This document shows, in pieces, positions 8,331 through 42,364 of a DNA stretch of 43,617 nucleotides. Numbering within the stretch: the first letter of the stretch is position 1; each line of letters starts with the position of its first letter. The stretch spans positions 779 to 44,395 of the forward strand of contig JACPBO010000017.1 in NCBI GenBank assembly GCA_016180285.1, given 5' to 3'. The DNA is from Candidatus Woesearchaeota archaeon (GTDB lineage: Archaea; Nanobdellota; Nanobdellia; Woesearchaeales; JACPBO01). The notes below the pieces were generated by a model, which saw only the letters and a list, made by a program, of their open reading frames with translations, ran no database searches and was not told the DNA's origin. A program made the translations under genes and the position numbers.

Positions 8331-9945
<1,615 letters not shown>

Positions 9946-10203: not shown

Positions 10204-10216
10204 CCATGCATAGAGT
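10204..10216 (+). other. 23S rRNA processing stem, 5' arm
   Basis: CCATGCATAGAGT is perfectly complementary to ACTCTATGCATGG at 13804-13816. The pair brackets 23S rRNA and is the expected pre-23S processing helix. Confidence 0.85.
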
Positions 10217-12166
10217 GTTCAGAAAAATGTTATTAGGTGAAGGACTCGGCTCTAACGCCGAAGAAGGATGCGACAAGCTGCATTAAGCTCTGGCTAGCTG
10301 CATGTAAGCTTTGAACCAGAGATCTCTGAATGAGACTTCTCATTAGATCCGAAAGGATCGGGAACGCAGGGAATTGAAACGTCTTAGTACCTGCAGGAAA
10401 AGAAATCAACGAGATGCTGTTAATAAGAGCGACTGAAAACAGCAAAGAGCAAACTGAATCTTTTATTGAAAGATAAAAGAGATGTGGTGTTGAAGACTGC
10501 CTTTTAGTCCTACTGTTTGACTTGAACTCTTCTGGAAAGGAGGGCGCAACAGGGTGATAGTCCCGTAAAGGTAAAACAGAGGATGTGGCAGTATCTTGAG
10601 TACTGTTTACCGGATACTAAACAGGAATTTGGGTGGCATCAACATCCAACTCTAAACACGTATAGAGTCCGATAGCGTAGAAGTACAACGATGGAAAGTT
10701 GAAAAGAACCCTTAACAGGAAGTTAAAAGAACCTGAAACCTAATAACAATAGTGGGGTGCGGCTCTTAGGAGTTGCACCATGCGTTTCGAATAACGTGCC
10801 AGGGAGTGCATTTGAGTGGCAAGGGTAATCTTAAAAAGAGAACCCGAAGCGAAAGCAATTGCCCGCAAGCAATGAGGGGCAAGGTGTGAAAGTGCCTTTA
10901 GTCACTTGAGTGCGACCCGAAGCCAGACGATCTAACCCAGGGTAAGGCGAAGCGGGGGTAAAACCTCGTGGAGGCCTGCAACTCTGCTACGAGCAAGTGC
11001 TATCCTAACCTTGGGCTAGGGGTGAAAAGCCAATCGAGTCTGGTGATAGCTGGTTCCTGCTGAAGTTGGCCGCAGTCAAGTCTCAGGTGAGACAGCTAAG
11101 ATGGTAGAGGTACGGATTTTGGATTTAGGCTTCGAAAGAAGTCGGTCCTCTGTCCAACTCCGAATATTTTAGCGTCTAAGACCTTGGGAAACGGGGATTC
11201 GGGGTAAACTTGAATTCCGAGAGGGGAACAACCCAGACTATAGTTAAGGTCCCAAAAACCAATTAAGTGTTATAGGCTGAAGAGCGTCAATAGTCTAAGA
11301 CAGCGAGGAGGTTGGCTCAGAAGCAGCCACCCTATAATAAGTGCGTAACAGCTTACTCGTCAAGACTATTGGCCTCCAAAATGGACGGGGCTAAATTGGT
11401 TACCGATACTATAGACCATCTTCGGATGTGTGGTAAGCAGGCGTTCTATGAGGGCAGAAATATTCTCGCGAGAGGATGTGGACCTCATAGAAATGAAAAT
11501 CCTGGCGTCAGTAGGATCATAGCAGTGTTAGAATCACTGCCACTGAAAGGGCAAGGGTTCCTTGACAATGCAAATCAGTCAAGGGTAAGTTAGTCCTAAC
11601 TAATCTCCCAATTGGAGTGTATTAGGAAAGGGAAAAAGGTTAATATTCCTTTACTGTTCGAGTATGTGCGGCAACGCAAGTTCAGTTTCTGAAATTTTTG
11701 GCTGGACCAACATGGTTATTTATCATGCCAATCAGAATAAATCTGGGGAGTATCGTAACGATGAGAACCAGATTAAATCTGAGATGAGTATTCCTATGGA
11801 ATATTTGGTTTAGGCCAGGAGTCCATGAAAAAGGAACTGAAAAAAATCTTGAATAACTATACCCAGAACCAGCACAGGTGCCCCTAGGTGAGTAGCCTAA
11901 AGTGTGAAGGATTAATTCAATTGAGGGAACTCGGCAAATTAGCCCCGTAGCTTAGGTAGAAGGGGTCCCTGCGGTCGTGCTGCATAAGTGCGATTGCAAG
12001 GTGCAATAACAAGGAGGGTCCGACTGTTTAACAAAAACTTAGCTTTCCGCTAGCCCGCAAGGGTGCGTATGGAAGGTGACGTCTGCCCAATGCTTGTATC
12101 TCAAACCTCTATTCAAGGAGGCTAAGGACAGGTCAATGGCGGGAGTAACTATAACTCTCTTAAGGT

Positions 12167-12856
12167 GATTTTGTCGCCTTAATAAAATCTGGCTATTTGC
12201 TGGAAAATCCGAGAATCTCACACTACCAGTGGACAAGTGTGCGCATAAAGCTTATAAAGCTGAATGCGCAAGTGTTATTGGTGAAAATGTGATGAGTGCG
12301 GACAATCAGCAGGAAAGACTAGATGATAAGTGGATCACAGGGTTTGTCGATGGAGAAGGTTGTTTTTATGTAGCCATAAACAAGCTACCAAAAATGACTC
12401 TAGGTTGGCAAGTTCTTCCCGAATTCAGAGTTGTTCAGCATCAGCGTGATGAACAAGTGCTTCATAAGTTGAAATTATTTTTTGGCTTTGGAAGCGTTGA
12501 AAGAAATCACGATGAGCGAAAAGAGTTCAGAGTAAGGGGAATCGAAAACTTGAATAAATTGATAAAATTTTTCAAGGAAAATCCTCTTGAAACTTCGAAG
12601 AAAAGAAGCTTTGAAATCTTTGCTCAAATCATCGAATTGATGAACAGCAAACAGCATCTGACAAAGGAAGGATTACATGAAATTGCTAACTTGGCTTCTC
12701 AGATGAACCGACAAGTCAAAAGAAATCTAGAATCCTCAGAGACTATATGCCGGAACTCCAAACAGGAGTAAGATATAGTCCGACCCTAACAGCGATGTTA
12801 GGAGCTGTGCAGAAATGCGCAGCCGCCTCTAAGAGGCCATTAAAGTAACAGATGTG
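12167..12856 (+). mobile_element. Group I intron in 23S rRNA (L1931 site)
   Basis: The exon ...TTAAGGT pairs with the internal guide GCCTTAA (12176-12182), giving the T-G wobble at the 5' splice site. The intron ends in G (12856), and exon 2 resumes AGCGAAAT. Core elements are visible: P3 TCTGGC (12189-12194)/GCCGGA; the R-type TCAGAGACTA (about 12736-12745) and S-type AAGATATAGTCC (about 12770-12781) forming P7; P8 ACTCC/GGAGT; and a P9 hairpin CCTAAC/GTTAGG. A GCGCAT/ATGCGC stem precedes the endonuclease ORF, so the ORF lies in the P6 region. Insertion follows E. coli U1931 inside the I-PpoI-like CTCTCTTAAGGTAGC region. This is a self-splicing class, not a bulge-helix-bulge intron. Confidence 0.93.
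12292..12771 (+). CDS. LAGLIDADG homing endonuclease inside the 23S intron
   Basis: A 159-residue single-motif LAGLIDADG protein similar in size to I-CreI, expected to act as a homodimer and cut intronless 23S genes. The motif is WITGFVDGEGCFYV, residues 14-27 from this start; Glu22 takes the place of the catalytic acid of I-CreI. FRVVQHQRDEQVLHKLK and FFGFGSVERN correspond to the DNA-binding sheet. ATG at 12292 is preferred (GGTGA upstream); the frame stays open to a GTG at 12229. The last dozen codons overlap the ribozyme's P7, P3 and P8 strands, so the C-terminal sequence is constrained by RNA folding. Confidence 0.9.
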   Translation: MSADNQQERLDDKWITGFVDGEGCFYVAINKLPKMTLGWQVLPEFRVVQHQRDEQVLHKLKLFFGFGSVERNHDERKEFRVRGIENLNKLIKFFKENPLETSKKRSFEIFAQIIELMNSKQHLTKEGLHEIANLASQMNRQVKRNLESSETICRNSKQE

Positions 12857-13803
12857 AGCGAAATACCTTGTCGTTTGAATGACGACGCGCATGAATGACG
12901 TAACGAGATCCTCACTGTCCCCAATTGAAGTCCTCTGAACACTCTTTTCTGGTGTAAAAGCCAGAGATTTCCAGTGGGAAGTGAAGACCCCGTGAAACTT
13001 TACTGTAGTCTGTTGTTGCAACGTGAGTTTTGGTGTATAGCGTAAGTGGGAGTCGTTTGAAGCTTAATCGTTAGGTTAAGTGTAGACGCCAATGTAACAC
13101 CACTCATTAAGACTTACGTCGCTAATTAACGAAAGTTAAAACAGCGATAGATAGACAGTTTGGCTGGGGTGGCACTCTGCTGAAAAAGTATCAGCAGAGC
13201 CCAATGGCTGACTCATTCGGGTCAGAAATCCGAAGTTGAGTGCGAGGGCAAAAGTCAGCCTGATTGGATTTCCACTAAGAAAGAATCCAAACATGAAAGT
13301 GTGGCCTAGCGAACCTCTATGTCCTCCTTGCTGGGGGCTAGAGATGACCGAAAAGTTACTCCGGGGATAACAGAGTCGTCGCGCCTGAGAGTTCACATCG
13401 ACGGCGCGGCTTGCTACATCGATGTCGGCTCTACCTATCCTGGCCGTGCAGAAGCGGCCAAGGGTGCGGGTGTTCACCGATTAAAAGGGATCGTGAGCTG
13501 GGTTCAGAACGTTGTGAGACAGTTTGTTTAATATCTACTGGAAATGCTTTGTGTCTGAAAGGAAGAATGCTCTAGTACGAGAGGAACGGGCATTCGAAGC
13601 CTCTGGTGAATCAGTTGTCTGCAAAGGCACGCTGAACAGCTACGCTTTTAAGGGATAAGAGCTGAAAGCATCTAAGCTCGAAGCCCTCCTTGAAAATAGA
13701 CACAATGAACACAAGCAAAAGACTTGTTCAATGGAATCGGTGTGTACGTGCAAAGCTTCGGCAATGCATTCAGCATGCGATTTCCAACAGTTCGACTTTG
13801 AAT

Positions 13804-13816
13804 ACTCTATGCATGG
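13804..13816 (+). other. 23S rRNA processing stem, 3' arm
   Basis: ACTCTATGCATGG is the perfect 13-base complement of the 5' arm at 10204-10216. A T-rich stretch follows at about 13820-13835 and could contribute to termination of the rRNA transcript. Confidence 0.85.
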
Positions 13817-32447: not shown

Positions 32448-35264
32448 TTATCGGGGATGTTTATGCCAAGGATCTATTCTTTTATCTAAAAAATCAGATA
32501 TTATTTCTGCAATCTTAAATACTTTCTCATAAGTATATTGTTCATATCCCCTAAATAAACTGGCATTTCCTGCGGATCGAGCTTTATAAATCTTCTTGAT
32601 TGAGTCATAGTTGATTTTAAATTTTGGCTCTTTCAAAATACGATTATATTCTTCCTCGTTCATTTCTCCAATTATTTTAATTTTGTTATCTATGTTATCT
32701 ATAAGTAACTTCAGTTCATCTAACATTTTTTCATTAGCCCACTTGACACTGGTCTTTGCTTCACCGCTTCTTATACTTTTTTCTGCCGCCTTTTTAGCTT
32801 CAGCGGTTTTCTTCTTTACTTCTTTGATTTCTTTTTCTATTCCTTTTTTGATAACGTCAACAATATACCATTTTGTATCGTGTCCAAATTCTTCTGTATA
32901 GTATTCCTTATTTCCTGGCCTCAAAGCCGCTGCTGTCAGCTGAATATGATAAATCCCTTGCGCATTTTTCGGTATTTCAAATTCTATTTGTACCATTGTC
33001 CCCTTTGCCATAGTTAATTCCATTAAACGCTTGCTATTATCTGCTCTAACATCTATAAAGTCCCCTCCAACCAGCCTTTTGATGTTTAGCCGCCATTGTC
33101 CAGCATTTATCTCTTTGAATTGTCGCGAAGCATCTAATCTTCCGTAATCTATATTACCTGCCTGATCTGTAATATAGCTGCCAACATATTTGTATAAGTT
33201 CACAAAAAGACGAATACGCGCTTTACCACCATCATTTTTTATTTTAAATATCAAATGATCGTATTTATCTCCAGCTGTTAATTTCTGTATTGTTTGGCTA
33301 TCAAGTTCGACTTTAATATTCGGGAGTTCTGTTGGTCCCGGCGGCGTTCCTCTTGGCTTAAGCGGAACAACAACGTCCATTTGGTTTGGATTTGTATCGT
33401 TAATTGTAATAACGTGTGGTGGATTGCCGCCTGGCTGGTCAGTATGTTTTCCTATTTCTGAGTTGCCATTAATATTCACATAACCATTTGCTTTTCCATA
33501 AACAAAATAGTTGCCGTGTGGAACTTCAAATTCAAATTCGCCGTTTGTTAGTCGTCTAAGTTGCGTATTTGTTGGGTACTGTCCTTCTTCTGTTGCGATT
33601 GATACTTCTGAATCAGGGATGGGGCGGTCATTATTTGTTACATCAGCAATCTTGCCTTTTATTTTGCCTGTTTGTACTGGTTGCATTCTCAATGGTACCC
33701 TTACTCTAATTTTTATTTCCTTAAGTTCAATTTTTTCTTGAGGGTATCCTTTTTCATCCATGTGGTTTCCTATCACATCTCTAAACTTAGCATGAACTAT
33801 GATGTTTTTAGTATTCAAGGGCACATTTTCTATCTTAAAATAACCATCATTTTCATTTTCATACTCGCTACCCCCCCATATACTTGTTGCCTCATTACCA
33901 ACTTTTCCACCACTCGATTCTGCCCACACTATCGCACCATTTATTCCTTTTTGTGGAAATTCTTCAGCCAATTCTGAAACTATAACCCTGCCTTCAATAT
34001 ATCCCATTTGTGTTGGAGGAAGAGGAACATCAAGAACAACAAGCACATCTTTTCGTTCTGGATGGGTCTGGTCAAGATCAAAAGGTTCTGCAGGTCTGCC
34101 TCCCATGGTGTGTGTATTTGGCTTTCCTTCTTTTTCAGCGTAAACTACAACTTTAGTTTTTGGTAAAGTTAAATCTTTGAATATAAATTTTCCATTTGCA
34201 TCAGAAGTTTGAGGATCTATCGGTAAAATGTAATAATGATCTGGACCTTGTGTTAAAAGCTTAACTATTGCTCTATCTACGCCTTTATTCATATCATTTT
34301 TATAAACAATCCTTCCTTCTACGAGTCCTTTTACTCCGCCAATTGGCGTCATCTTTATATTATGTATTAACCTGTCTTTGCTTTGAACTGTTATTGGTTG
34401 TGAATTATATTGTTCATAACCTTCTTTCGTTGCTTGAAGCTGGTAAGTACCAGCAGGGATTTGAATATAATAAGTGCCATTAGCATCTGAAGAAAACATG
34501 CCCCCTGTTCCAGAGCATTGTATCCTAGCAAAAGGTACCTTTTCATTAGTGTCATTAATATCTGTAACAACACCATATATTATTCCATAGCCATCTGACG
34601 GTTCAGGCGGCACTGGTGGCGGCGTTGGCTCCTTTTCTTTATCTTCCCCAAACTTAAACCCTCCTGTAAGCGCTGTCAGGATCAAGGCGATCACAAACAG
34701 CACAGCTCCTATAGTTGTGATTGTCCTGTTTTTTGAAATAGAGCCGTACATCACAAGTATGAATGAAATCACCCAAAGCAATGCAGTTAATTTCTTCAGG
34801 TTTGCGTCAAAATCGCCTTCGCCCAAAATGCCCTTGCCCTTTTTCCGCAATGCAAAAAACACAACTGCCAGGATCAGCAATGCAAGCAGAATCCATCCCC
34901 ATGATCCAATTCTGTTTGTGAAAAATCCGGATGCATAGCCGGCTCCGCCTCTTCCCTGCATATAAGAAAACAGGGATAAGGTTGCAATTGCTGAAAGCGA
35001 TAATGCGAATATCTGCCCTGCAGGACCGACACTTCCGCCGCTGGCTTTGAAAAACGGTATATTCTTTGACAGAGCGAAGAATATGGAAAATAAGAAAATA
35101 AATATCACTAAAAACATTATTGTGTAGAAAGCATACTGGTTTTCAACCAATCCGTAGAAGTTCTGGAAGAAATCATTAACAGTCAGGGCATTTGCAAATG
35201 GCATTAAAAGCAGAGACAGCCCTAGTAAAATTGTCAGCTTTGCATTTATTTTATTCAAGCTCAT
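32448..35264 (-). CDS. Large membrane-anchored protein with carboxypeptidase-regulatory-like repeats
   Basis: A 938-residue protein. Residues 1-26 resemble a signal peptide (ending FANA). Transmembrane segments follow at about 45-66, 84-101, 122-140, 160-175 and 181-200. A Pro-rich linker (EPTPPPVPPEPSDG, about 212-225) leads to several beta-sandwich repeats of the carboxypeptidase-regulatory (CarboxypepD_reg/prealbumin-like) type, each with the pattern G-x-V-x-D...A-x-V...T-D-A-N-G-x-Y/F (about 228-310, 313-410, 415-515 and 525-640). Then comes another beta domain (about 640-770) and a charged coiled coil (about 785-860). It is likely a cell-surface or envelope protein. Its start overlaps the stop of a small ribbon-helix-helix gene. 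Confidence 0.82.
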   Translation of the reverse strand: MSLNKINAKLTILLGLSLLLMPFANALTVNDFFQNFYGLVENQYAFYTIMFLVIFIFLFSIFFALSKNIPFFKASGGSVGPAGQIFALSLSAIATLSLFSYMQGRGGAGYASGFFTNRIGSWGWILLALLILAVVFFALRKKGKGILGEGDFDANLKKLTALLWVISFILVMYGSISKNRTITTIGAVLFVIALILTALTGGFKFGEDKEKEPTPPPVPPEPSDGYGIIYGVVTDINDTNEKVPFARIQCSGTGGMFSSDANGTYYIQIPAGTYQLQATKEGYEQYNSQPITVQSKDRLIHNIKMTPIGGVKGLVEGRIVYKNDMNKGVDRAIVKLLTQGPDHYYILPIDPQTSDANGKFIFKDLTLPKTKVVVYAEKEGKPNTHTMGGRPAEPFDLDQTHPERKDVLVVLDVPLPPTQMGYIEGRVIVSELAEEFPQKGINGAIVWAESSGGKVGNEATSIWGGSEYENENDGYFKIENVPLNTKNIIVHAKFRDVIGNHMDEKGYPQEKIELKEIKIRVRVPLRMQPVQTGKIKGKIADVTNNDRPIPDSEVSIATEEGQYPTNTQLRRLTNGEFEFEVPHGNYFVYGKANGYVNINGNSEIGKHTDQPGGNPPHVITINDTNPNQMDVVVPLKPRGTPPGPTELPNIKVELDSQTIQKLTAGDKYDHLIFKIKNDGGKARIRLFVNLYKYVGSYITDQAGNIDYGRLDASRQFKEINAGQWRLNIKRLVGGDFIDVRADNSKRLMELTMAKGTMVQIEFEIPKNAQGIYHIQLTAAALRPGNKEYYTEEFGHDTKWYIVDVIKKGIEKEIKEVKKKTAEAKKAAEKSIRSGEAKTSVKWANEKMLDELKLLIDNIDNKIKIIGEMNEEEYNRILKEPKFKINYDSIKKIYKARSAGNASLFRGYEQYTYEKVFKIAEIISDFLDKRIDPWHKHPR

Positions 35265-35434
35265 TTTAATTTTTTAAGCAATTCCCTGTTTTTTTCTATA
35301 AACTCCTTTAATGCCTTTTCAACAACTTTTGATCTTATCAGGCCCAGTTCCTCACAGAGCAGAGAGAAATCCTCATACGTTGCTTTATCTATCAGAAAAT
35401 TATACCTTTCTTTATTCTTCTTTTCCTTAGGCAT
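35261..35434 (-). CDS. Small ribbon-helix-helix protein (57 aa), coupled to the 938-aa gene
   Basis: A 57-residue frame beginning MPKEKKNKERYNFLIDKATY and continuing EDFSLLCEELGLIRSKVVEK, ALKEFIEKNRELLKKLK. The strand-helix-helix pattern (YNFLID, then GLIRSKVVEKAL) is that of CopG/Arc-type DNA-binding proteins. Its TGA overlaps the ATG of the 938-residue gene (ATGA), so the two are translationally coupled. Three phased ACTTAAT repeats lie just upstream of its start and are a likely autoregulatory operator. It may control expression of the large surface protein. Confidence 0.75.
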   Translation of the reverse strand: MPKEKKNKERYNFLIDKATYEDFSLLCEELGLIRSKVVEKALKEFIEKNRELLKKLK

Positions 35435-35444
35435 TGTGTGTATT

Positions 35445-35504
35445 ATTACTTAATTCTACTTATATTTAAGTTTTATTACTTAATTTAAAGTATTTTAACT
35501 TAAT
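35445..35504. promoter_or_regulatory. Phased ACTTAAT operator repeats before the small RHH gene
   Basis: ATTACTTAAT occurs at 35445-35454 and 35475-35484, and TTAACTTAAT at 35495-35504. Offsets are 30 and 20 bp, whole turns of the helix, so all three lie on one face. This is the arrangement expected for cooperative ribbon-helix-helix binding, and the sites overlap the presumed promoter. Confidence 0.6.
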
Positions 35505-35589
35505 ATTATATATTAATACACACAAAACTTTATAAAGATTTCGGTTTCGTAAAGTAAATTTTTCGATGTACAGTAAACCATATAGTGTG

Positions 35590-35705
35590 AAAAATCCAGC
35601 CATGGCGGAGACGAGGCAGGGGTTGTCCCTGCGGGATGCCGAGTAGGGCAAAACCGAGCAAAGCGAGGTTTTGACCGTCTCCCGCCATGGTTGGCTGGAT
35701 TTTTT
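35590..35705. other. GC-rich structured element (multi-stem inverted repeat)
   Basis: A closing stem of about 23 bp is formed by AAAAATCCAGCC plus ATGGCGGAGAC (35590-35612) and GTCTCCCGCCAT plus GGCTGGATTTTT (35677-35705), with small bulges. Inside are two perfect hairpins, GCAGGG/CCCTGC (35616-35632) and CAAAACC/GGTTTTG (35649-35673). The element is far richer in GC than its surroundings and ends in a T run on either strand. It could be a non-coding RNA with a terminator (a TATA-like ACTTTATAAAG lies at about 35527-35537 on the plus strand) or a MITE-like or dispersed repeat. Confidence 0.6.
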
Positions 35706-35739
35706 AAGCAATATGAGTTGGAATTTCTTTTAAGCCAAA

Positions 35740-36075
35740 TCAGCATGTTGAATGCATTATCGCAGCAACCTTCTTCTTATCCTTCAGAATCGCATTGTAA
35801 GCTTCGCATGCCTCTTTTGTCTTCAGTATGATCAGCTCAATATTTTTCTCTTTCGCAATGTTAATAACTTCATCTCTTACCTCAACTAACCCTGAAAATC
35901 CTATTCCTATAACAACAGCATCAGGCTTTGAGTCAAAGATTTCAAACATGTCCTGCTCTACAACTGCATGATGCTCTACATAATGCCACGGAATGATCTT
36001 ATTGCCTATTATCTTGATATCTCCAAAGCTTTTGCTGTTGATCACAATTGATCCGAATGAACAGGATTGTATCAT
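35740..36075 (-). CDS. Mth938/NDUFAF3-like domain protein
   Basis: A 111-residue protein of the Mth938-like (also NDUFAF3, C6orf125) fold. Features: FGSIVINSKSFGDIKIIGNK, IIPWHYVEHHAVVEQDMFEI, PDAVVIGIGFSGLVEVRDEV, and IELIILKTKEACEAYNAILK. In eukaryotes a relative helps complex I assembly; in archaea the role is unknown. A TATA-like TTTATATTTAA (minus strand, about 36090-36100) is about 20-26 bp before the ATG, so it is likely leaderless. The GC-rich structured element follows its stop. Confidence 0.82.
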   Translation of the reverse strand: MIQSCSFGSIVINSKSFGDIKIIGNKIIPWHYVEHHAVVEQDMFEIFDSKPDAVVIGIGFSGLVEVRDEVINIAKEKNIELIILKTKEACEAYNAILKDKKKVAAIMHSTC

Positions 36076-36108
36076 AAATTGGGAATAGCCATTAAATATA
36101 AAAAGTTA

Positions 36109-36213
36109 TTGAAAATTGTCTGCTCAGCAGCGGGTTTAAGCCCAACAATTTTCAATCCCAAAAACCGCATGATAAATGCCCCTAGCTTAGCCTGAATATC
36201 AAATGCGGTTTTT
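36109..36213. other. Two adjacent hairpins between divergent genes
   Basis: The first hairpin is TTGAAAATTGT (36109-36119)/ACAATTTTCAA (36145-36155), perfect over 11 bp, with smaller stems CTGC/GCAG and GGG/CCC in its loop. The second is AAAAACCGCAT (36160-36170)/ATGCGGTTTTT (36203-36213), also perfect, with a 32-nt loop. They lie between the minus-strand Mth938-like gene and the PAC2 gene, outside both coding regions. A small RNA is one reading; simple transcript-end or regulatory stems are another. I do not see C/D or H/ACA boxes with confidence. Confidence 0.5.
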
Positions 36214-36269
36214 GTTATTGGAAACTTTTATATATTACATACATCAAATTCAATTAAAAAGAGGTTGAA

Positions 36270-39171: not shown

Positions 39172-42100
39172 TTATTCAACTAAAATCGCAGCTTTTCCAG
39201 GCGCTGCATTGTTCGCCTTCTGCTCTTTGGAATCCTCTGCATTTACAACTTCAATCCCGCAGTTAAATTCTTTTTCAATCGCTTCCTTGTTTTTCTCCAA
39301 AGCTTCAAACTCTGTTTTCTGATCCAATACAATAACAGGCATCTTTCCCATATCCTTCACAACAGCAGGGATTATTTTTGAAACTTCGGCTCCATGCTGT
39401 TTAAAATCTTTCATCAAAACACTCATCAACTCCCTTACATCATGCGTTTTCTTAAGTTCTTTTTTCAGCGTTTTAAAGAAATCATACTTCCATTTATGGC
39501 TTATGATTAATGTTATCCTGCCAGGTTTTTCTTTTTTAATAAGCGTTAAAACATTTCTTGCATCTGAAATGGTATTCCTGACAAAGTTCTCAGAAGCATC
39601 TAAGCTTTCATCAATGTATTTCTCGTTATAAGAAGGCCATTCTGCCAAAGAAACAAACCCTTTATTTCCCATCATCTCCCATAATTCTTCTGCCAGATGC
39701 GGCGCAAAAGGCTGCAGCATCTTGATAAAAGCTTCAGCAGCTTCTTTCGATGCGCTGTACTTTGCAAGGTGATCGAAATAGTCTGAAAGCCGTATTATTG
39801 CTGTATTGAATTCAAGGGCATCCATGTGATCTGTAACATCCCTTATTGTTTTGTGCATCTTATTCAATAATTCTTTTGAGCTTTCCTTTGAAAGCTTTGC
39901 TTCTGAGACAAAAGAATAGATTTTATTCACAAGCCTATACATCCCCTCTATTCCCTGGTCGCTCCATTCAACTTCCTTGTCCGGAGAAGCGACAAACAAT
40001 AAAAACAATCGCGCCGTGTCTATTCCGTATTTCTGGGCAATCTCTTCCTGCGTTACAACATTGCCCCTGCTTTTGCTCATCACAAAGCCGCCTTTGTGCA
40101 GCATCCCCTGGTTAAACAAGCGGGGAGCAGGCTCGTCAAAATTTACCAATCCCAAATCGCGCAAAAACTTTGTAAAGAACCTGAAATAAATCAAATGCAT
40201 GCATGCATGCTCCTTTCCCCCGATATACAAATCAATCGGCATCCAATAGGCCGCTTTCTTTTTATCAAAGATCTCTTTTTCATTTTTTGGATCGCAATAT
40301 CTCAGGAAATACCAGCTTGAATCAATAAAAGTGTCCATCGTATCCGTTTCTCTTCTTGCCTTTCCCTTGCATCCGGGGCATTTTGTGTTTACAAATTCGC
40401 TGACATTTTCCAGCGGATTTCCTTTTCCGCCAAACTCGACATTTTCAGGAAGCCTGACTGGCAGCTCTTTTTCCGGAACAGGCACAATGCCGCACTTCTC
40501 GCAGTAAACAATTGGGATCGGGCAGCCCCAGAATCTCTGCCTTGAAATCAGCCAGTCTCTTAACTTGTACTGCACAGTTTTCTTTCCAATGCCCTCTTTC
40601 TCTAAAAATTTGTTTATCTCAGGAATCGCTTCTTTATTGTTCATATCATTGAATCTGCCTGAATTGACAAGATAGCCCTCTCCAATAAAAGCCCTCGACA
40701 TCTTATCTGCATTCAGCTCATACTCTCTTGGGTTAATTACAGCCTTTATTGGAATCTTGAATTTCTTTGCAAAATCAAAATCTCTTTGATCATGAGCCGG
40801 AACAGCCATTATTGCGCCAGTTCCGTAATCAAGCAGAACAAAATTTGCAATGTAAATCGGGATCTCGGCATTTGTCAATGGGTTTATTGCATACCTTCCG
40901 ATAAACATTCCTTCTTTTTCTTTGTCTTCAGCTGTTCTTGTAAATCTGTCTTCTATCACAACCTTTTCTATGAACTTCTTGACATCTGCCTCATACCTTG
41001 TTCCCTTTACAAGCTCCAGAACTTTTGGATGCTCAGGAGCATAAACCATGAATGTAACTCCGTATAATGTATCCGCCCTTGTTGTAAATATTGGGATTTT
41101 TTCTAAGCATCGATTAAGAACGTCTGGTTCTTTCTCTCCGCATATATGACTTGCCTCAGCTTTAAAATCAAAAATAACGCCGCCAATAACTTTTTTTATT
41201 TTATCTGCTCTCTCTGGAGGCAAAGCATAATCATTTTTAGCCCTAAGTATTGCAATATCTTTTACATTTTTTTTGATTTTGTCAAAATCAAACTTCCAGT
41301 TGAAAGTTTCATCGAAAGGCCTTTTCTTATCTTTAAATTTTGGCTCGATAAATCCGGCAGCCAAAATTAGCTTTTTAATAGGTTTTTCTAATCTTTCAAG
41401 AATCTTTAATGCTACTGCAGCTCCCAAGCTGTGCCCCAATAAAACAGTATTTTCATCAAATCTCTCATTTTTTAAAACATATTCAGCTTGTTTTATAACA
41501 TCAGGATTATCAGTATCAGGCAAATTAGGAACATTAACTTTATATCCTTTGCCTTCAAGTTCTTTTCTAAGCCATGGGAAAAAAAGTGCATCAGGCGAAC
41601 CAGCATATCCGTGAATCAAAACATAATTATTATCTGTCTTAATTTCAAAATCAACCAATGTTCCTTCGCTTCTTCCGATCCAGTTGCGCTGCATTGTCTT
41701 TACATCTTCACTCCATTGCAGCCCATCAATATCCTTAAGCAATTCTTCAGCGTAATCTGTTATCTTGAAGAACCACTGCTCCAGATCCCTTACTTCAACA
41801 TTTGTATCCTCATGCCTCCAGCATTTGCCGTCATGCACCTGCTCATTTGCCAGAACAGTGGCGCATTTAGGGCACCAGTTGACAACGGATTTTTTCCTGA
41901 AAGCTAATCCTTTTTCAAACATTTTCAGGAAGATCCACTGGTCCCATTTGTAATACTCAGGAGTATGAGATGCAATAACCCTGCTCCAATCATAGCTCAA
42001 TCCAAGCTCTTTCTGCTGCCTTATGAAATTTTTAATAGCATCTTCGGTGAATATCTTGGGATGCGACTTGGCTTTTATTGCAGCGTTTTCAGCCGGCAAT

Positions 42101-42342
42101 CCAAAGCTGTCATAGCCCATTGGATAAAGCACATTAAATCCCTGCATTCTTTTAAAGCGGGCAAAGCAGTCTCCTATTGTATAATTGCGGACATGCCCCA
42201 TATGGAGCCCTGACCCAGATGGATATGGATACATCTCAAGGCAGTAGAATTTCTTCTTTTTTGGATCCTCTTTAACTTCAAATATCTTGGCATCTTCCCA
42301 CTTCTTCTGCCATTTCCTGCTTATCTTATTGAAATCTGCCAT
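39172..42342 (-). CDS. leuS: Leucyl-tRNA synthetase with an inserted alpha/beta hydrolase domain
   Basis: A 1,056-residue bacterial-type LeuRS (numbering from ATG 42342). HMGH is at 47-50 after YPYPSGSGL, a zinc-binding block NWCPKCATV near 155-163, RDWLISRQRFWG near 595-606, DTMDTFIDSSWYFLRY, and VMSKSRGN near 754-761. The CP1 editing domain keeps FTTRADTLYG (Thr421-type positions) and the conserved Asp518 in AHDQRDFDF. Between LVDFEIK (ends about 235) and IPIFTTR (about 416) lies a foreign insert of about 180 residues: VLIHGYAGSPDALFFPWL, VLLGHSLGAAVALKI with nucleophile Ser305, ILRAKNDYAL with Asp371, and EASHICG with His399, an RBBP9/YdeN-like hydrolase. TTTATAAA (about 42365-42373) is 26 bp before the ATG, giving a leaderless message. 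Archaea normally carry the archaeal type, so this gene was likely acquired. Confidence 0.93.
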   Translation of the reverse strand: MADFNKISRKWQKKWEDAKIFEVKEDPKKKKFYCLEMYPYPSGSGLHMGHVRNYTIGDCFARFKRMQGFNVLYPMGYDSFGLPAENAAIKAKSHPKIFTEDAIKNFIRQQKELGLSYDWSRVIASHTPEYYKWDQWIFLKMFEKGLAFRKKSVVNWCPKCATVLANEQVHDGKCWRHEDTNVEVRDLEQWFFKITDYAEELLKDIDGLQWSEDVKTMQRNWIGRSEGTLVDFEIKTDNNYVLIHGYAGSPDALFFPWLRKELEGKGYKVNVPNLPDTDNPDVIKQAEYVLKNERFDENTVLLGHSLGAAVALKILERLEKPIKKLILAAGFIEPKFKDKKRPFDETFNWKFDFDKIKKNVKDIAILRAKNDYALPPERADKIKKVIGGVIFDFKAEASHICGEKEPDVLNRCLEKIPIFTTRADTLYGVTFMVYAPEHPKVLELVKGTRYEADVKKFIEKVVIEDRFTRTAEDKEKEGMFIGRYAINPLTNAEIPIYIANFVLLDYGTGAIMAVPAHDQRDFDFAKKFKIPIKAVINPREYELNADKMSRAFIGEGYLVNSGRFNDMNNKEAIPEINKFLEKEGIGKKTVQYKLRDWLISRQRFWGCPIPIVYCEKCGIVPVPEKELPVRLPENVEFGGKGNPLENVSEFVNTKCPGCKGKARRETDTMDTFIDSSWYFLRYCDPKNEKEIFDKKKAAYWMPIDLYIGGKEHACMHLIYFRFFTKFLRDLGLVNFDEPAPRLFNQGMLHKGGFVMSKSRGNVVTQEEIAQKYGIDTARLFLLFVASPDKEVEWSDQGIEGMYRLVNKIYSFVSEAKLSKESSKELLNKMHKTIRDVTDHMDALEFNTAIIRLSDYFDHLAKYSASKEAAEAFIKMLQPFAPHLAEELWEMMGNKGFVSLAEWPSYNEKYIDESLDASENFVRNTISDARNVLTLIKKEKPGRITLIISHKWKYDFFKTLKKELKKTHDVRELMSVLMKDFKQHGAEVSKIIPAVVKDMGKMPVIVLDQKTEFEALEKNKEAIEKEFNCGIEVVNAEDSKEQKANNAAPGKAAILVE
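41098..41640 (-). other. Alpha/beta hydrolase domain inserted in LeuRS
   Basis: The insert within leuS at the start of the CP1 editing domain. It carries an oxyanion-type HGYAGS near its start, the GHSLG nucleophile elbow, and Asp and His triad candidates in the order Ser-Asp-His with normal spacing. It looks complete and not decayed. Neighbouring LeuRS sequence reads through without it. Confidence 0.88.
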
Positions 42343-42364
42343 TTTGATTACAGTTTGCAACTTG

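Follow-up and report, generated by a model that had tools for sequence, protein, structure and literature searches.

A dispersed three-armed repeat of Woesearchaeales, probably a mobile element without genes and defined by its folded shape

What kind of element is the GC-rich island (58%) that lies at positions 35590-35705 of the window, the whole stretch of 43,617 nucleotides analysed here from a contig (JACPBO010000017.1) of a Candidatus Woesearchaeota archaeon? It is surrounded by an AT-rich spacer whose neighbours, both on the minus strand, encode a ribbon-helix-helix protein (35261-35434) and a DUF498 protein (35740-36075). A preliminary description, made from the letters alone, had presented the island as a multi-stem element with a 23-bp closing stem, two perfect internal hairpins and T runs on both strands, had offered a small RNA, an insertion element lacking genes and a dispersed repeat as possible identities, and had proposed a search of the genome and its relatives for further copies and a covariation check on an alignment. 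Its coordinates and sequence proved right, and the island folds far more stably than shuffled sequence on both strands: the RNA of the 151 nt around it is predicted at -71.4 kcal/mol for the plus strand (z -6.9, a stability reached by none of 200 shuffles) and at -62.0 kcal/mol for the minus strand (z -6.6), and folding as single-stranded DNA gives z-scores of -7.6 and -7.4 for the two strands. The T runs are also present, one terminating each strand. Spurious protein translations had also been linked with archaeal genomes of this kind, a remark that the locus bears out only by three ORFs of 52-81 aa lying across the element, of which the one at 35466-35711 has no Pfam match.

The element turned out to be a dispersed repeat, as had been suggested. 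A plain DNA search places it at 14 sites of its own genome, the window copy included, and a covariance model (R1), built from 20 copies, detects 20 copies there (E <= 0.1, the weakest at 0.01). These repeats are roughly 105-118 nt long, gene-free and three-armed in fold; they are located in spacers with unrelated flanks, and ORFs of at least 200 aa overlap copies in two cases. Among 20 exact matches to the stem motif in this genome, two (C5 and C8) fall outside copies and both are without a matching second arm; among these matches no solitary outer stem lacking the core was found. The spread across the order is wide and patchy: a DNA search of relatives was positive in 13 of 60 genomes, and a covariance-model search of the order found the repeat in 121 of 352 genomes, the copy numbers per genome in this search being lower bounds, as no more than 10 candidates were scored in each. 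In a sample of the phylum 68 of 371 genomes were positive, every match among those listed belonging to the same order, and none of 80 genomes from other orders of the class carries the repeat. When named genomes were searched by pattern, the eight stretches retrieved were all from Woesearchaeota, and no stretch with the core pattern was found in viral contigs. Rfam 15 gave no match at the gathering score, the best match below it (E 0.32) being at chance level. No published description was found in the literature searched, mainly titles and abstract openings, and the excerpt of PMC12306157 contains no mention of Woesearchaeota; the repeat family is real, order-wide and, within that literature, undescribed.

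An alignment of 20 copies (A1) yields a three-way junction formed by P1, by P2 with an apical P2b hairpin, and by P3, in which P1 consists of an outer (P1b) and an inner (P1a) helix with a bulge of 3-4 nt on the 3' side. The parts of the window copy are as follows.

35590..35705, plus strand: entire element, an A run at its start and a T run at its end, a member of the family described by model R1
35591..35602, plus strand: P1b, 5' arm of the outer closing stem, differing in sequence among copies
35603..35610, plus strand: P1a, 5' arm of the inner closing stem
35611..35644, plus strand: P2 arm, its outer helix pairing 35611-35618 with 35637-35644
35619-35625, plus strand: conserved GGGGTTG within the P2 arm
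35626-35636, plus strand: P2b apical hairpin, TCCC-TGC-GGGA, its loop being the site of module M in other copies
35643..35646, plus strand: GTAG tetranucleotide at the junction, a REP-like tag whose T pairs with A35611
35646..35676, plus strand: P3 hairpin, its arms forming perfect pairs at most positions, letters free to vary among copies
35677..35678, plus strand: conserved GT at the junction between P3 and P1
35679..35687, plus strand: P1a, 3' arm, base 35682 being bulged
35688..35691, plus strand: bulge TGGT in the 3' half of the closing stem
35692..35703, plus strand: P1b, 3' arm, the T run extending to 35705

The closing stem of the preliminary description is thus real, at about 20-22 bp and interrupted by bulges of 4 nt (35688-35691) and 1 nt. 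The two inner arms likewise exist, though not as perfect hairpins: P3 contains G.A mismatches in this copy, and the 6-bp P2 hairpin given by energy only differs from the fold conserved among relatives, in which CCC pairs with the downstream GGG and GGCA with TGCC.

This shape is supported by strong covariation. Both sides have changed in 22 of the 40 pairs of A1, a figure reached by none of 500 shuffles; pairing holds in 85.5% of cells, and covariation scores 0.308, compared with 0.149 for shuffles and no more than 0.108 with the partners slid. The result was repeated on 85 distinct rows of a larger alignment (A2), which was fitted to the structure and so leans towards it, and on which the G-T counts given below rest. 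In P1b many copies are wholly different in sequence with pairing kept. At the T of the GTAG tag, 69 of 84 rows of A2 have T and 15 have C, and together with the partner the combinations are A-T (62), G-T (7) and G-C (15); since GTAG turns into GCAG where the partner changes, the T of the tag behaves as a base pair, placed at the junction rather than at the end of the element. In orthologous copies of the own genome (L010) and of G001, a genome of the same genus (L083), both arms of P2 and of P3 have changed together while the flanks can still be aligned.

A covarying fold is also what would be expected of a structured RNA family, either trans-acting small RNAs or elements of untranslated regions, with genes spread by duplication. 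In keeping with this reading, T runs stand at both ends, the P2b loops are UNCG-like (TTC, TAC, TGC), the centre of P2 holds tandem G.A pairs (about 41 rows of A2) or Watson-Crick pairs, and about 910 P1b pairs of A2 include 28 G-T against 6 A-C, which indicates that the plus-strand fold is the one kept. P3, whose loops are frequently C(GNA)G or C(AAA)G triloops, speaks otherwise. G-U pairs are normally tolerated in RNA under selection, yet P3 columns 119, 120 and 122-126 of A2, with freely varying letters, contain 583 Watson-Crick pairs, 1 G-T and 1 A-C (585 pairs). The near absence of G-T from arms that vary freely favours DNA-level palindromes over an RNA gene, and the perfect P3 arms would fit palindromes maintained by template switching or gene conversion, although three pairs outside P3 (columns 17, 30 and 43) do show many G-T. 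Furthermore, the flanks revealed no common promoter on reading, divergent gene pairs surround many copies, no strand is preferred relative to genes (in codirectional spacers 11 copies run with the genes and 7 against), and the set of copies differs between two species of one genus. Taken with these observations, a structured RNA family appears possible but rather unlikely.

The arrangement of neighbouring genes bears also on a bidirectional transcription terminator, a function that a stem bordered by T runs on both strands might suggest. By simple ORF calling at 100 aa, without annotation, the 54 spacers holding copies comprise 25 codirectional, 21 divergent and 8 convergent ones, and the other spacers of the same loci 42, 18 and 15, respectively. 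There is thus no convergent preference, and termination does not need an elaborate conserved core, so that we give this explanation very little credence. No duty of the repeat towards neighbouring genes is evident.

Comparison within the genus points instead to movement. In G001 the position orthologous to that of the window copy lacks the repeat and has two genes in its place, presumably a nucleotidyltransferase/HEPN pair; the position orthologous to that of copy L003 lacks it too and holds a different structured repeat. Two copies of the own genome are 97% alike, sharing the element and not the flanks. Three pairs of orthologous loci have copies in both genomes, and some copies must therefore be old. 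No base-exact empty site was obtained from these comparisons. A second dispersed structured repeat occupies the next spacer of the window (36106-36219), with relatives in G001 at C6:65963-66078 and C13:7314-7384, and it is one of the G001 copies of this type that lies at the ortholog of the L003 site.

If the repeat were a classical MITE, it would have terminal inverted repeats, would be cut by a DDE transposase and would leave target duplications. It resembles MITEs in being non-autonomous, dispersed and bounded by inverted-repeat ends, and in one relative (G031) four copies do lie within true MITEs, 184-bp units with the terminal inverted repeat GGCTTCATCC and 9-bp duplications. These inverted repeats, however, lie some 37 bp beyond the element, and units of the same inverted repeats and stem hold other interiors, so that the element looks like cargo and the duplications belong to the enclosing units. 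Outside G031 target-site duplications are not in excess: flank repeats of at least 8 bases accompany 3 of 78 copies, where about 3.8 are expected. REPs, too, are not known to duplicate their targets. Moreover, the pattern of conservation is the reverse of that of MITEs, the terminal stem varying (P1b still paired) and the core being conserved, and we accordingly regard a classical MITE as improbable. An autonomous parent with terminal copies was not seen; the sole plus/minus pair, 2.9 kb apart (L094), flanks ordinary genes, as judged from their translations. The flanks of L094, L091 and L093 (G315) show further multi-stem elements with a GGCAACAACA stem, as if related families were nested.

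Neighbouring copies are arranged in a single manner. Among 135 listed copies at 111 loci, 23 pairs lie within 300 bases of each other and all 23 are head-to-head, although these pairs are not independent, some having been inherited or copied together; in nine of them the 5' arms overlap by 17-21 bases. Such dimers recall the REP/BIME/REPIN repeats, which are described in the excerpted text of PMC3733652 (Di Nocera et al. 2013) as palindromes of 20-40 bp tagged with GTAG and CGTC. In common with the REP/BIME system as given in that excerpt, the repeat is a short non-coding palindrome of spacers with a patchy distribution between species, occurs predominantly as head-to-head dimers, is in some cases inserted in other palindromes and has GTAG beside a hairpin. 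It differs from the single 20-40 bp palindrome of that source in its 105-118 nt and three helices, from an end tag in having GTAG at the junction with a T that changes along with its partner, and from the whole system in having no tie to RAYT, the Y1 tyrosine transposase, none of 10 Y1 loci being flanked by the repeat. The repeat probably works like REP/BIME elements, and departs from them in size, tag and RAYT association.

Two kinds of enzyme were searched for as possible movers, and no mobilising enzyme was found among the Y1 transposases and reverse transcriptases. Genes for Y1 transposases are enriched in genomes with the element (66 of 121, against 54 of 231 without it; uncorrected for genome size or kinship). 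Despite this, we reject Y1 as the mover: it occurs in 27 of 48 copy-rich genomes and is absent from the other 21 and from the own genome (96% complete), and none of the 10 Y1 loci fetched carries the repeat. Retroposition, in which a reverse transcriptase would copy back a terminated transcript, would account for unit ends lying exactly at T runs, and reverse transcriptase genes are somewhat commoner with the element (44 of 121 genomes against 51 of 231, a weak enrichment uncorrected for genome size or kinship). Such genes are nevertheless found in only 20 of the 48 copy-rich genomes and not at all in G001, which is listed as 100% complete and has 12 DNA-search matches. The own genome has a single match (G000:C36:18762-19387), split into two adjoining pieces and perhaps a broken gene. 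A reverse transcriptase was not accepted as the mover, and retroposition seems highly improbable. Neither kind of enzyme is a requirement, given the lack of Y1 in the own genome and of reverse transcriptase in G001.

The account that we consider probable is that of a mobile repeat of Woesearchaeales that is non-coding and non-autonomous and is set by a conserved three-way-junction shape instead of fixed ends and REP/BIME-like in its working. It corresponds to the gene-free insertion element of the preliminary description, which is the best fit to the data; we infer it, given that target duplications are not in excess outside one relative and that the enzyme searches gave no mover. On such a model the plus strand would fold while single-stranded in replication or transposition, and the core (junction, GGGGTTG, and the P2b and P3 hairpins) would be recognised by an enzyme encoded elsewhere, which would move or copy the repeat unit and as a rule leave no target duplication. 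Template switching or gene conversion may then keep the short palindromic arms perfect or swap them between copies.

In addition, some copies of the repeat hold a second structured module. Copy L014 has 133 extra bases (module M) in the P2b loop that its ortholog L081 is without, and module M is found at the identical place in L088 and L039. Of 352 genomes of the order, 39 contain M-like DNA, mostly in the form of the final 30 bases of M, which make up a hairpin with GAGCGTAACC. Among 34 distinct M end hairpins in the fetched loci, 8 were assigned by reading to a P2b loop (L014, L039, L088, L190, L191, L194, L195 and L197; L196 and L202 are doubtful). At 9 of the 34, excision of the hairpin restores a tRNA according to ARAGORN, against 1 of 204 control positions, although two of the nine (L208 and L218) adjoin an intact tRNA and may be fragments. 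Independently, the Rfam tRNA model places long anticodon-loop inserts in L203, L207 and L213, which contain the hairpin: at L207:1423-1570, L203:1426-1586 and L213:1460-1595 there is a near-identical insert hairpin CAAC(T/G)GGTTACGC..., followed by GTTGACACGCAA. The M end hairpin thus resembles archaeal tRNA introns in lying in anticodon loops of tRNA genes; unlike them, the repeat itself was found inside a tRNA gene in none of 66 clusters, and its identity as a tRNA intron was rejected. In G299 (C7:321570-321834) the M end hairpin appears three times at a regular spacing of 118 bases. It is conceivable, if rather doubtful, that mobile structured modules of Woesearchaeales target the apical loops of hairpins for insertion, giving hairpins within hairpins, with M entering the P2b loop and its relatives acting as putative tRNA introns.

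Two further loci of the window have apparent inserts of other kinds. The rRNA genes at 8331-9944 and 10213-13807 exceed the Rfam models in length (1614 nt against 1478, and 3595 against 2987), which makes inserts or introns likely, above all in the 23S gene. A leucyl-tRNA synthetase-like ORF (39172-42360) shows, on reading of its translation, an apparent insert HGYAGS...GHSLGAA, which we take to be alpha/beta-hydrolase-like, in what is presumably the editing region of the synthetase.

For archaea known mostly from metagenomes, the repeat adds an order-wide family of shape-conserved repeats, probably mobile, which exemplify ends that change freely around a folded core that is kept. In practical terms, the covariance model can be used in annotation for masking spacers and the spurious ORFs that overlap copies. 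Module M provides a clue to the way in which archaeal tRNA genes acquire introns: if insertion into hairpin loops is true, one loop-seeking mobility would create both repeats and new tRNA introns, and the origin of archaeal tRNA introns would become directly testable.
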